A DNA stretch of 64,000 bases from Pseudomonas sp. P8_229 (GTDB taxonomy: Bacteria; Pseudomonadota; Gammaproteobacteria; Pseudomonadales; Pseudomonadaceae). A model generated the notes under the pieces. It did not search any database, was not told where the DNA came from, and worked only from the letters and a program-made list of their open reading frames with translations. Below are positions 19,122 to 47,786 of the stretch, piece by piece. Location of the stretch: positions 62,001 to 126,000 of the forward strand of contig NZ_CP125378.1 of NCBI RefSeq assembly GCF_034008635.1. Reading direction: 5' to 3'. Every line of letters begins with the position of its first letter. Position 1 is the first letter of the stretch. The position numbers were made by a program, and so were the translations under genes.

Positions 19122-19211
19122 GGTCTATTGACGCCGCGTACCTTGGCGACGTCGCTTCCTTCACTTTTCGGAAAAGCAAGATCACCGGATTACCGGACTT
19201 CCCCTCCCCCC

Positions 19212-20231
19212 ATGCGACCCGCCACCTCCAGCGCTGCCTTCGTTAACCACGTCCTTGATGTCGCCGAGCAACACGGCTGCGATGGCGATTGGCTGTTGCA
19301 CCAGACCGGACTGTCACGCGAGCAGTTGTCCGACTCCATTGTGCGCATCCCCATGAAGCAACTGCGCGCCCTGCTGGAACTGGCGGCGCGCAGCAGCAAC
19401 CTGGCGCATTTCGGCCTGCTGGTCGGCGCGGCCGTGCGCCCCGGCACCTACGGCGTGCTGGGGTATGTGCTGATGACCAGCCCGACGCTGGGCGAGTCGC
19501 TGAATATGATGCTGCGCTTCGGCAAGATTCTCTACGACAGCCCTTCCAGCCAGACCCGGGTCGTCATCGGCGACGGCCGCGTGACCCTCGAAGATCAGCG
19601 CACCAGTGAACTGGAACCTTATTGCGCCCTGCACCAGGAAGCCCTGATGGTCGGCTGGGCGGCGTTCGGGCGCTGGTTGGTCGCCAGCAACCAGCCGATG
19701 CTGGAAGTGCGAATGATGCATGCCGCCGTCGGCGAACCGGCGCTGTATGAACACTTTTTCGGCTGCCCGGTGCAGTTCGAGGCCGGGAGCAACGCACTGG
19801 TGTTTGCCGAGTCGACACTCTCGACGCGGATCCAGGGTGCCGACCCGCGCATGCACCGCAGCATGCTGCTGGAAGCCGACTGGCAGCTGTGCCTGTCGTA
19901 CCCGGCATTTTCCGTGACCGACCGCTTGCGCGCGCTGCTCACCGAACAATTGCCGACCGGCGATTTCAGCCTGAAAAGCCTGGCCCGGCAGTTGGCGATT
20001 TCGCCGCGCACCTTACAGCGCAAACTCGCGGCCGAAGGGGAAAACTTCAATCAGGTGCTGGAAACCATGCGCATGGAACTGGCCGACCATTACCTGCGTC
20101 GCACCGAGACCAGCATCATGAACATCGCCCTGATGCTGGGTTACTCGCAGGCCAGTTCCTTCAGTCATTCCTTCCGTCAGGCGCGCGGGATCTCGCCGGT
20201 GGATTACCGCAAGTTGCTGCGGGCCAGATAA
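19212..20231 (+). CDS. AraC family regulator (Arabinose_bd + HTH_18)
   Basis: 339 residues. The N-terminal half matches the 'arabinose-binding' domain of the OruR/ToxR-like AraC group (LLHQTGLSREQLSDSIVRIPMKQLRALLELAA). The C-terminal two-helix-turn-helix domain spans about residues 235-335 (LARQLAISPRTLQRKL, IALMLGYSQASSFSHSFRQ). I took the ATG at 19212. The frame is open upstream to a TTG at 19128 that follows a weak GGGT, so the true start is uncertain. Position suggests control of the SDR or hydrolase nearby. The effector is unknown. Confidence 0.86.
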   Translation: MRPATSSAAFVNHVLDVAEQHGCDGDWLLHQTGLSREQLSDSIVRIPMKQLRALLELAARSSNLAHFGLLVGAAVRPGTYGVLGYVLMTSPTLGESLNMMLRFGKILYDSPSSQTRVVIGDGRVTLEDQRTSELEPYCALHQEALMVGWAAFGRWLVASNQPMLEVRMMHAAVGEPALYEHFFGCPVQFEAGSNALVFAESTLSTRIQGADPRMHRSMLLEADWQLCLSYPAFSVTDRLRALLTEQLPTGDFSLKSLARQLAISPRTLQRKLAAEGENFNQVLETMRMELADHYLRRTETSIMNIALMLGYSQASSFSHSFRQARGISPVDYRKLLRAR

Positions 20232-20258: not shown

Positions 20259-20957
20259 TCAGACGCTCGACGCAGACATCGCTGCCTCATCGATCAACGC
20301 CGCCACCTCGGCGGCATGCGACGCCAGCGAAGCATGACTGGCCTCCAGCGTGATGACTTTCCTGGCGCCGAGGCGCGCCGACATCATCTTCTGGTTGTCC
20401 GGGTGGATCATGTGATCCTGGCTGGAGATCTGATACCAGCTCGGCTTGTTTTTCCAGGCCGGATTGCTGATCGGGTCGCCAAAGGTACTGGCCACCGGCG
20501 CTTTCTGAGTGACCGCCATGACCAGCGCTTCATCGGCCGTCAGGTCCTGACAGAAGCTTTCATGGAACTTGTCAGCCTTGAGCCACAGAAAACCGTCGCT
20601 GTCCGGTGCCAGGTTCGGCGCAGCCTGCGGCAGATGTTGCTGAGTCAGGCCGCCCGGGCTTTCGCCGGCATCCGGGGCGAACGCGGCGATGTACACCAGA
20701 CCGACAACATTGGATTGGTTGCCGGCCTCGGTGATCACCGCCCCACCGTAAGAGTGCCCGACCAGCAGCACCGGCCCGCGCTGTTGCGCAATCATCTTGC
20801 GAGTGCGCTCTGCATCATCGGCCAGCGAGGTCAGTGGCATCTCCACCGCCCGGATGTCTGTGTAGCCCCTGCGCGTCAGCTCGACAATGACGTGGCCCCA
20901 ATGCGCCGCGCCGCCCCAGAAACCGTGTACCAGCACAATGGTCGGTTTATTACTCAT
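20259..20957 (-). CDS. Alpha/beta hydrolase (salicylate esterase/EstC-like)
   Basis: 232 residues. The oxyanion motif VLVHGFWGGAAHW, nucleophile elbow GHSYGG (Ser at about 83), and the catalytic His near the C-terminus in EASHASLASH are those of the MESS/hydroxynitrile-lyase-like hydrolases common in bacteria. The ATG at 20957 has GGAG upstream. The frame extends upstream into the repeat array without family likeness. The gene points leftward, convergent with the AraC gene, and its promoter lies within 100 bp of the REPIN array. Confidence 0.87.
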   Translation of the reverse strand: MSNKPTIVLVHGFWGGAAHWGHVIVELTRRGYTDIRAVEMPLTSLADDAERTRKMIAQQRGPVLLVGHSYGGAVITEAGNQSNVVGLVYIAAFAPDAGESPGGLTQQHLPQAAPNLAPDSDGFLWLKADKFHESFCQDLTADEALVMAVTQKAPVASTFGDPISNPAWKNKPSWYQISSQDHMIHPDNQKMMSARLGARKVITLEASHASLASHAAEVAALIDEAAMSASSV

Positions 20958-21044
20958 GGCCTTGCTCCTGTCAGGATCGAAGATGTTTGCCAAACCGCCG
21001 CAGGAGTATGGAACTGATTCACGAGTCGGGCCACCGAGACCTTG

Positions 21045-22863
21045 AGCCCCAATGGTTCTCACCCCACCCGATTAACTGTAGAAGTGAGCCTGCTCGCGAA
21101 GAGGCCATACCAGCCACCTCATATACTGACTGACACACCGCTTTCGCGAGCAAGCCCGCTCCCACAGGGGGACGCACCAAGCCAATGGTTCTGACACCAC
21201 CCAATTAAAACTGTAGGAGTGAGCCTGCTCGCGAAGAGGCCATGCCAGCCACCTCATATGCTGACTGATACACCGCTTTCGCGAGCAAGCCCGCTCCCAC
21301 AATGGGACGTCGCTGCGCCAGTGGCCCTGGCACCATCCAATCAAAACGGTGGGAGCGAGCCTGCTCGCGAAGAGGCCATACCAGCCACCGCATATGCTGA
21401 CTGATACTCCGCTTTCGCGAGCAGGCTCGCTCCCACATGGATCGGCGCTGTGCCGTGGTTCTGGCACCACCCAATTAAAATTGTGGGAGCGGGCTTGCTC
21501 GCGAAGAGGCCACATCAGCCACCTCATATACTGACTGACACACCGCTTTCGCGAGCAAGCCCGCTCCCACAATGGGCCGGCGCTGCCCCAGTGGCCCTGG
21601 CACCACCCAATTAAAATTGTGGGAGCGGGCTTGCTCGCGAAGAGGCCATGTCAGCCACCTCATGCGCTGACTGACACACCGCTTTCGCGAGCAGGCTCGC
21701 TCCCACATGGGCCGGCGCTGCCCCAGTGGCCCTGACACCACCCAATTAAAATTGTGGGAGCGGGCTTGCTCGCGAAGAGGCCACATCAGCCACCTCATAT
21801 GCTGACTGATACTCCGCTTTCGCGAGCAAGCCCGCTCCCACAATGGGCCGGCGCTGCCCCAGTGGCCCTGACACCACCCAATTAAAATTGTGGGAGCGGG
21901 CTTGCTCGCGAAGAGGCCATGTCAGCCACCTCATGCGCTGACTGACACACCGCTTTCGCGAGCAGGCTCGCTCCCACATGGGCCGGCGCTGCCCCAGTGG
22001 CCCTGACACCACCCAATTAAAATTGTGGGAGCGGGCTTGCTCGCGAAGAGGCCACATCAGCCACCGCATATGCTGACTGATACTCCACCTTCGCGAGCAA
22101 GCTCGCTCCCACTATGAGCCGGCGCTGCGCCAGAGGCCCTGACACCACCCAATTAAAATTGTGGGAGCGGGCTTGCTCGCGAAGAGGCCACATCAGCCAC
22201 CGCATATGCTGACTGATACTCCACCTTCGCGAGCAAGCCCGCTCCCACAATGGGACGTCGCTGCGCCAGTGGCCCTGGCACCACCCAATTAAAATTGTGG
22301 GAGCGGGCTTGCTCGCGAAGAGGCCACATCAGCCACCGCATATGCTGACTGATACTCCACCTTCGCGAGCAAGCCCGCTCCCACTATGAGCCGGCGCTGC
22401 GCCAGAGGCCCTGACACCACCCAATTAAAATTGTGGGAGCGGGCTTGCTCGCGAAGAGGCCACATCAGCCACCTCATATACTGACTGACACACCGCTTTC
22501 GCGAGCAAGCCCGCTCCCACTATGAGCCGGCGCTGCGCCAGAGGCCCTGACACCACCCAATTAAAATTGTGGGAGCGGGCTTGCTCGCGAAGAGGCCACA
22601 TCAGCCACCTCATATACTGACTGACACACCGCTTTCGCGAGCAAGCTCGCTCCCACTATGAGCCGGCGCTGCGCCAGAGGCCCTGACACCACCCAATTAA
22701 AATTGTGGGAGCGGGCTTGCTCGCGAAGAGGCCACATCAGCCACCTCATATACTGACTGACACACCGCTTTCGCGAGCAAGCCCGCTCCCACAATGGGCC
22801 GGCGCTGCCCCAGTGGCCCTGGCACCACCCAATTAAAACGGTGGGAGCGGGCCTGTGGTTCTG
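21045..22863. repeat. Tandem array of about 13 REPIN-type units (134-136 bp period)
   Basis: Thirteen full units and one truncated unit start at 21078, 21213, 21349, 21483, 21619, 21754, 21890, 22025, 22161, 22297, 22433, 22569, 22705 and 22841. Each unit has a left REP (GTGGGAGCGGGCTTGCTCGC), a spacer of about 40 bp, an inverted right REP (GCGAGCAAGCCCGCTCCCAC), and a linker of about 48 bp ending CACCCAATTAAAA. A degenerate linker precedes unit 1. The two REPs pair into a long hairpin. Units 5 and 7 are identical, and 4 and 13 nearly so, which shows reshuffling within the array. Several frames are open through it on the minus strand, but 136 is not a multiple of 3 and no ribosome site is seen, so it is not coding. 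Confidence 0.95.
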
Positions 22864-22909
22864 ACCGCATGGGCAGGTGTCTCTGGCTGGAGGCAGAAAA
22901 CTGCTCGGT

Positions 22910-23932
22910 CTATTTGACCAGGCGTTTTTCCTTGGACGGTCGATAACCGAAAAACGCGCTATAGCATTTGCTGAAATGACTCGGCGAAACAAAGCCGCAC
23001 GCCACCAGCACTTCCATCTGCGACAGCTCGGTGTGCTGCAGCAGGCGCCGGGCTTCGGTGATGCGCAGTTCCAGGTAGTAGCGCTGCGGTGTGGTGCCCA
23101 GTTGCTCCTTGAACAAACGCTCCAGCTGCCGCCGCGAGCGGCCGGCGTACACCGCCAGTTGCTCCAGCTCCAGCGGCTCTTCGAGGTTGGCGTCCATCAG
23201 TTTGACCACCTCGCGCAACGGTGCGCTGACACAGAGGTTTTCGTCCGGTTTGATCCGCCGATAACGCGACTCTTCGAACGCCAGAATATCCTCGATACCT
23301 TCAACCAGCGCTTTGCCGTGCAGGTTCTTGATCCAGTCCAGCGCCATGTGGAAAGCCCCCGACGGGCTGGATGCCGTGAGCCGGTCGCGATCGATCACAT
23401 AAGGTTCGCTGCTGACCTGAGTGGATTTGGCAATTTCCGTGAGCGCGGGGCGGTGTTCCGGATGAATCGCGCAACGATAACCCTCGAGCAGCCCGGCGCG
23501 TCCGAGAAACCACGCCCCGTTCCACAAACCGGCCAGGCTAACGCCACGCTCCGCTGCCGCACGCAGCAGGCTGATCAACTCTTCGCTCGCCTTCAGCTCC
23601 GTGCGGTAGCCACCGCACACCACCAGCAAATCCAGCTCCGCCAGGCTGGCCAGGTCAATCCGTGCATCGGGGCGAATGACCAGGCCCAGATCGCTGATCA
23701 CCTGCGCCTCGCCCAGGCCGAACGTGCGCGAGGCGAACAGCCCGGCACGCAGCAGGTTGGCGGTGATGATCGTATCCAGCGCTTGAGTGAAGGCCGGCAG
23801 CGAAAAGTGCTCCAGCAGCAGGAAACCGGTGCGGGTGAGGCGCGAATCTGCAGATTGTTCATTCAGATAGCGGAGGTTTTTGCCCTTCATGCCTCCGCTG
23901 AATTGACGTCGTTCGATCAAGGTCTGGCCCAT
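22910..23932 (-). CDS. GlxA-type transcriptional regulator (DJ-1/PfpI + AraC HTH)
   Basis: 340 residues. The N-terminal DJ-1/PfpI-like domain covers about 30-200 (GFLLLEHFSLPAFTQAL, LDLLVVCGG, LAGLWNGAWFLG, where the usual nucleophile Cys position is not Cys). The C-terminal AraC domain covers about 230-335 (LAVYAGRSRRQLERLF, ACGFVSPSHFSKCY). This architecture is shared with ArgR, CdhR and GbdR of Pseudomonas, which sense amino acids and quaternary amines. It is the last gene of the leftward agmatine operon, 49 bp after the Tat agmatine deiminase, so it may sense agmatine or a product. That is inference. Confidence 0.88.
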   Translation of the reverse strand: MGQTLIERRQFSGGMKGKNLRYLNEQSADSRLTRTGFLLLEHFSLPAFTQALDTIITANLLRAGLFASRTFGLGEAQVISDLGLVIRPDARIDLASLAELDLLVVCGGYRTELKASEELISLLRAAAERGVSLAGLWNGAWFLGRAGLLEGYRCAIHPEHRPALTEIAKSTQVSSEPYVIDRDRLTASSPSGAFHMALDWIKNLHGKALVEGIEDILAFEESRYRRIKPDENLCVSAPLREVVKLMDANLEEPLELEQLAVYAGRSRRQLERLFKEQLGTTPQRYYLELRITEARRLLQHTELSQMEVLVACGFVSPSHFSKCYSAFFGYRPSKEKRLVK

Positions 23933-47122: not shown

Positions 47123-47150
47123 TGTGGGAGCGAGCCTGCTCGCTCCCACA
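47123..47150. repeat. Single REP palindrome
   Basis: Perfect 12-bp stem TGTGGGAGCGAG/CTCGCTCCCACA with loop CCTG, the same REP family as the array at 21045-22863. It sits 6 bp beyond the ridA stop and could end that transcript. Confidence 0.85.
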
Positions 47151-47711: not shown

Positions 47712-47786
47712 TGGCAGGGGCGGCTGGATTCGAACCAACGCATGGCAGGATCAAAACCTGCTGCCTTACCGCTTGGCGACGCCCCT
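47712..47786 (-). tRNA. tRNA-Gln (TTG anticodon)
   Basis: 75-nt cloverleaf on the minus strand with encoded CCA. Acceptor AGGGGCG pairs with CGCCCCT, the anticodon stem is GCAGG/CCTGC with loop TTTTGAT (anticodon TTG), and the T-arm is GTTGGTTCGAATCCAGC. The discriminator base is G. Confidence 0.95.

Follow-up and report, generated by a model that had tools for sequence, protein, structure and literature searches.

The window, the whole 64,000-nucleotide stretch of DNA analyzed here, comprises bases 62001–126000 of a Pseudomonas genome assembled as a single contig of 6,365,050 bp. At the locus under study, an AraC-family regulator gene (araC; 19128..20231, forward strand) is followed by a gene for an alpha/beta hydrolase (Abhydrolase_6; 20259..20957, reverse strand) and by a gene for a regulator of the DJ-1/PfpI plus AraC type (22910..23932, reverse strand). 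Between the last two lies a long array of tandem repeats (21078..22840, forward strand), with the hydrolase start codon 120 bp to its left and the 3' end of the regulator gene facing it. TRF reported a repeat of period 136 at 21091–22852 with 13.0 copies and 92% matches, and a count of the units likewise gave 13. This bears out the first-pass annotation, which had described at least 13 REPIN units with a period of 134–136 bp. Only one further REP was found in the rest of the 64 kb, at position 47124 (≤4 mismatches).

Each unit is composed of an 88-bp REPIN (a 22-bp REP, a 44-bp spacer and an inverted REP) and a linker of 46–48 bp. Unit 4 may serve as an example, with its REPIN at 21483..21570 and its linker at 21571..21618 (both forward strand). 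Counted from 21078, the unit periods are 135, 136, 134, 136, 135, 136 and 135 bp, followed by five of 136 bp. The 26 complete REPs alternate strictly in orientation (F-R-F-R), and a 27th is truncated. REPs are spaced 66 bp apart within a REPIN and 68–70 bp apart over a linker, so that the array forms a nearly even ladder. Alternating REPs at regular spacing are also the pattern of BIME-2, and the array is a long, ordered REPIN cluster in the form of a BIME-2-like ladder. As in other tandem REPIN clusters, the inverted REPs are able to form hairpins: the one unit that was folded (22025–22160) gave –39.9 kcal/mol (z –7.22) as single-stranded DNA and a strong hairpin of –79.6 kcal/mol (z –6.9) as RNA. 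The tandem copies are near-identical including their flanking sequence, with a mean identity of 0.899 over 78 unit pairs.

Both edges of the array, as read from the sequence, are degenerate or incomplete. A partial linker (21044..21077, forward strand) stands to the left of unit 1, and on the right the truncated 27th REP (22841..22855, forward strand) is followed by a scrap of linker (22856–22865), an arrangement that looks like the remnant of a deleted REPIN. REP stubs joined to linker were seen at three places: at 22841–22866 in the window, at the nhaB locus of a related genome (G275; locus L224), and at positions 91–179 of locus L088, where the junction adjoins a contig end and is possibly misassembled. 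These fusions look like the scars of lost or excised REPINs.

The units had been described in the first-pass annotation as a mosaic, and this is real. The spacer and linker variants that it named are all present and recur in the array, units 5 and 7 are identical, and units 4 and 13 are alike at all but 2 positions. The 1-bp loss of period accompanies the CCACATGGG linker in units 5 and 7; in unit 3 (134 bp) the linker is a close variant of it, and unit 1 (135 bp) carries a different variant. Recombination inside the array is only partly supported. Of 325 informative site pairs, 133 showed all four combinations and are thus incompatible with one tree, and a PHI-like test gave P = 0.016 for all 13 units, but units 4–13 alone gave no significant signal (P = 0.60). 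Units 1–3 are the most divergent, with an identity of 0.851 to units 4–13, which share 0.934 among themselves. Units were also compared with those of a related species, Pseudomonas sp. H1h. With the chimeric 178-bp H1h unit left out, identity was 0.931 within the window (units 4–13) and 0.948 among four H1h units, as against 0.894 between the species, with one fixed column. Judged from these alignments, exchange among units is likely and homogenization is modest: within-species identity exceeds between-species identity by little and only one column is fixed. Strong concerted evolution between the window and H1h was rejected on the same values.

REPINs with the core of the array are dispersed through the genome, where 247 inward-facing copies were found compared to 0 matches for a control pattern. 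The view that REPINs rarely form long arrays proved overstated, as at least seven other tandem arrays are present in this genome. In addition to an array beside nhaB, which is considered below, these include seven units of period 133 at 365 kb, five of period 206 at 1.589 Mb, five of period 171 at 6.235 Mb, four of period 281 at 5.998 Mb, four of period 132 at 698 kb, three of period 210 at 271 kb, and period-135 ladders that flank a RAYT gene at 533 kb on each side. In four of the other arrays (L062, L063, L064 and L065) flanking sequence is seen in the linkers, apparently including the ends of neighboring genes. A strict pattern of one REPIN and, a short linker away, another REP was matched in 71 of 398 Pseudomonas genomes. 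Forward matches numbered 37 in the genome under study, 137 in G074, 81 in G349, 41 in G121 and 40 in G034. The longest array among 20 foreign loci, all chosen because they showed runs or pairs, held 10 REPINs (L207). Given the other arrays in the genome and the short-linker stretches across the genus, the window array belongs to a known kind, though it is a long example.

Neighboring REPs of this class keep preferred distances, nearly fixed at many loci and in many species. In 66 of 72 loci, counted by hand among the matches listed with the first match taken for each, the span was 142–148 bases out of an allowed 129–169, and the other six measured 136, 139, 139, 140, 159 and 160; the loci are not all independent, as some seem to be homologs from different species. 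Spans also cluster among the 32 outward doublets of the genome under study that were among the matches listed: 19 fell at 90–95 and nine at 81–85 (81 being the lowest span allowed), and the others at 101, 104, 110 and 126. The window, 365-kb and 698-kb arrays were left out of this count and a 1.483-Mb array was counted once. Both distributions point to preferred REP distances, to which the longer-linker arrays at 1.589, 5.998 and 6.235 Mb and at 271 kb are exceptions. Some outward doublets sit in small ladders, and several hold an imperfect palindrome. At L184–L203, between 0.19 and 2.70 Mb of contig G000:C1, the interiors of outward (tail-in) doublets measure about 47 or 37 bp, and several are palindromes; these doublets are probably a second REPIN type with the same REP. 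The window linker was considered as a member of this doublet family and rejected, because the linker tested holds no palindrome (0.34, z –0.6) and an origin from nhaB, described next, fits better.

The second array lies at 5.842 Mb, between a Cof-type HAD gene and a gene identified as nhaB by its NhaB family model, and comprises seven units of period 135. It is 605,364 bp away from the window array across the numbering origin. HAD and nhaB are neighbors in 12 of 12 relatives examined. One REPIN stands between them in six of the 12 (G237, G033, G019, G109, G234 and G171), two REPINs with a different linker in G034, and two with a remnant unit in G275. The remaining four (G011, G016, G029 and G060) have no REPIN of the array class at this site at ≤5 mismatches, and G060 has a REPIN-like pair of a different class. 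In the single-REPIN relatives, the DNA to the right of the REPIN runs into the end of nhaB. Every linker of the seven-unit array is the 3' end of nhaB, including its last codons and stop (WYA.S.WL stop), and the junction of each linker with the left end of the following REPIN, as read from the sequences, falls at a short match, ACCA. When the linker was aligned with the native nhaB tails of the 12 relatives, none of 2,000 shuffles reached the score for nine of them; for G029, G060 and G237 the score was reached by 1, 25 and 45 of 2,000 shuffles, respectively. Since these linkers are the native nhaB end and are matched by the tails in relatives, the array at this site grew by repeating a REPIN together with the tail of the neighboring gene.

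The window linker is homologous to this nhaB-tail linker. Their local alignment score was 50, compared to a maximum of 28 in 5,000 dinucleotide shuffles, at most 26 for 19,357 random 48-mers from the window, and at most 20 for 43 other linker sets. Aligned directly with the native nhaB tails, the window linker was reached by none of 2,000 shuffles for five of the 12 relatives (G275, G033, G034, G019 and G171) and by 15, 32 and 33 of 2,000 for G109, G011 and G234, with no significant match for the other four (G237, G016, G029 and G060). Among the 12 between-unit linkers of the window, that of unit 1 at the array edge (21166..21212, forward strand) is the most similar to the nhaB linker, scoring 52 where the others score 39–46. 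Over whole units, the window and nhaB-locus arrays share an identity of 0.787, and the linkers have diverged. When the own genome was searched with a unit as probe, among the 40 of 614 candidates scored, the window units and six places within 5841921–5842728 aligned over positions 1–134, while the alignments at other sites extended no further than position 100.

A 61-nt linker probe, for which unit 1 is the matching copy in the window, was matched in 6 of 398 genomes. Two candidates were scored per genome, so that absences carry little weight; among them, only the own genome and G275 had the match at the site of the window array. G034, G076, G083 and G171 had one match each, those of G034 and G171 being at the nhaB locus. 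Other relocated copies may lie beyond the candidates scored in these searches (40 of 614 candidates in the own genome, two per genome elsewhere).

In G275 (regulator 95% and AraC protein 96% identical), the gene order is a PAD_porph-family gene, the regulator, a single REPIN, araC as its direct neighbor, and a short-chain dehydrogenase; the hydrolase is missing. The single REPIN is bordered on both sides by an nhaB-type tail, the right one being partial. When aligned with the nhaB and window linkers, its left linker scored 60 and 58, respectively, and the partial right linker 38 and 32. Read from the sequence, the inserted DNA begins on its left where a REP would end, an observation that is no more than suggestive. 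At the same locus in Pseudomonas sp. H1h, the contig with the hydrolase holds five complete REPINs and the contig with the regulator a further two; each of them breaks off within the array, so the H1h count is at least 5+2. A further H1h contig, carrying the HAD gene, also ends in a REPIN beside an nhaB-like tail. The comparison of copy number in relatives that the first-pass annotation had called for, made with one genome per species, therefore shows a difference between species: 13 in the own genome as assembled, at least 5+2 in H1h and 1 in G275.

On the 3' side of the regulator, about 5 kb in each of 17 relatives contained no hydrolase and no tandem REP array, and hence no readable empty site. 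The 4.6 kb after the araC orthologs of G011 and G237 held no REP of the array class. No genome with the araC–regulator junction but without a REPIN was found, which leaves the insertion site and the ends of the insert unreadable. In Pseudomonas sp. GM80 (L089 6660–6740), a tail-to-tail REP pair of a different class lies just after the same regulator, with the hydrolase 3.5 kb further on.

Two RAYT genes were identified in the own genome (REP_Tyr_transpos, NF047646, over the cut-off), and the search for one with matching REP specificity, also suggested by the annotation, gave a mixed result. The gene at 533 kb (L068 1395–1907) has a REP ladder on either side. Of the 16 REPs in these ladders, 3 match the array consensus exactly, but the pair closest to the gene departs from the REPs of the array at 5 and 4 of 22 positions. 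All four REPs near the second gene, at 4.79 Mb, differ at 4 positions. On this comparison the 533-kb RAYT would be the likelier partner of the array, although the match is not exact. TnpAREP of E. coli is reported to cut mainly 5' or 3' of the REP (PMC8266576), and rolling-circle growth of BIMEs by RAYT is proposed in Nunvar 2010 (PMC2817692); taken together, a REP-bounded piece with its linker could move.

The homology of the window linker to the nhaB 3' tail captured in the sister array suggests that a unit of REPIN plus nhaB tail was copied from the nhaB locus to the window locus and grew there, whichever agent moved it, and this is considered probable. At its source, the 3' end of nhaB is captured between REPINs as linker. 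The REPIN-plus-tail unit would have been copied from there to the araC–regulator junction 605 kb away, probably by the REP transposase RAYT, where the array likely grew by unequal recombination or slippage. The relocated unit is also present in two related species at other copy numbers (1 in G275, at least 5+2 in H1h). Against this account stand the divergence of the linkers, the four native nhaB tails that lack a significant match to the window linker, the inexact REPs closest to the 533-kb RAYT gene and the non-significant recombination test in units 4–13. The agent may equally have been other than a transposase. By way of REP homology, the nhaB array might have replaced, or exchanged sequence with, a REPIN already present at the araC–regulator junction, with the linker acquired by gene conversion and growth by unequal exchange; this alternative keeps the nhaB origin and changes only the agent. 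The REPs of 247 inward REPINs offer long shared homologies, the four-gamete incompatibilities among units reflect exchange or recurrent change, and ectopic copying between REPINs at two loci would leave an identical linker. However, the single REPIN of G275 has the linker on both sides, so that the exchanged tract would need to reach beyond the homology on each of them. As a full account ectopic recombination is held to be possible but rather unlikely, and on the bare question of the mover, RAYT instead of ectopic recombination stands at about even odds. Purely local duplication, as in the SBW25 clusters, would make the linker native to the araC–regulator junction and its likeness to nhaB a matter of chance. 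Such duplication does occur, as the linkers of four other arrays in the genome contain parts of the DNA that flanks those arrays, but the score of 50 lies so far above every control maximum (28, 26 and 20) that this account is extremely improbable here.

Repeats of this length do confuse short-read assemblies, as is seen from the three H1h contigs that end at the two array sites, and a short cluster could in principle have been inflated in assembly. The genome is, however, one contig, the units differ from one another, and the independent H1h assembly shows the array at the same locus from both flanks. The artefact that the annotation had named as a refuting outcome is thus very unlikely. The annotation also supposed that the array could affect transcription of the hydrolase gene, and this found no support: no sigma-70-like promoter was found between 20900 and 23000, and in G275 a REPIN occupies the site where the hydrolase is absent. 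A role as a regulatory element for the hydrolase was rejected on these two grounds. In a broader version, selection would maintain the array between regulator and hydrolase because it insulates transcription or shapes topology, in the manner of the gyrase-binding BIME-2 arrays of E. coli. Both neighboring genes have the same reading direction across the array, and the folded unit gave a strong RNA hairpin. Against this, three related species differ in copy number (1, at least 5+2 and 13), the G275 site lacks the hydrolase, no promoter-like site was found, and the one terminator-like site at the array locus is within chance expectation; selection of this kind seems unlikely. Relatives differ in whether the array is present and in its copy number, and the hydrolase does not accompany it in every species. 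The array would best be regarded as selfish or neutral, with a possible incidental influence on transcription, and presumably has no selected host function.

The tandem ladder itself is of a known kind, and the nhaB origin of the linker is the new part. The clusters of P. fluorescens SBW25 (Bertels and Rainey 2011, PMC3116915) likewise consist of tandem, near-identical REPINs with their flanks, in extragenic positions of a RAYT-bearing genome. The largest REPIN cluster of that report holds four REPINs and one REP, compared to 13 REPINs here, and it lists a pair of tandem arrays of 12 REPs (GI and GIII) as well; in the text consulted, no travel of a linker between loci is described. BIMEs of Stenotrophomonas and other RAYT hosts share the regular REP spacing and alternating orientation (Nunvar 2010, PMC2817692). 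The inter-REP segments of Stenotrophomonas vary substantially in length there, whereas the linker here measures 46–48 bp, and the captured tail here comes from a host gene, nhaB, and has a related copy at a second locus. The BIME-2 elements of E. coli are also alternating tandem REPs, of another REP family. TT and HH dimers are described for REPs of the GTAG families (Di Nocera 2013, PMC3733652), and the inner REPs of the window array take part in both an HH pair (66 bp) and a TT pair (68–70 bp); unlike here, the portions of that paper at hand describe no preferred TT spacing of the ladder-making kind. In the literature covered, mostly open papers and including PMC3686654, no description was found of a REPIN unit that took a host gene tail along when it moved.

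The spread of REPINs, and the reason that some of them build long ordered arrays, have been approached by deducing mechanism from distribution, so far as the consulted text of Nunvar 2010 and Bertels 2011 goes. A host gene tail in the linker labels its source, which makes it possible to trace the transfer of a whole unit by sequence and to locate it on the tree of relatives. Preferred spacing across species likewise provides a testable rule for RAYT action. It may tentatively be proposed that REP ladders are a mobile, growing element of fixed geometry, in which a new REPIN would be placed tail-to-tail about 69 bp from a resident REP whatever the DNA between; any host gene tail could then become the linker, and the REP-bounded block could be copied with its passenger to a new locus. 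If true, this would be a bacterial route to capture and move gene ends.

Some minor features of the window were also recorded. The hydrolase (20259–20957) has relatives of 80–84% identity in Paraburkholderia, Pandoraea and Achromobacter and adjoins the regulator in 0 of the 17 relatives examined; the gene has possibly moved horizontally. The single match in the window to an Rfam family over its gathering score is a tRNA gene at 47715–47786. Open frames of 107–166 amino acids made of the repeats are present at 21072–21572, 21475–21843, 21746–22069 and 22561–22992, and these are likely spurious if annotated as genes.
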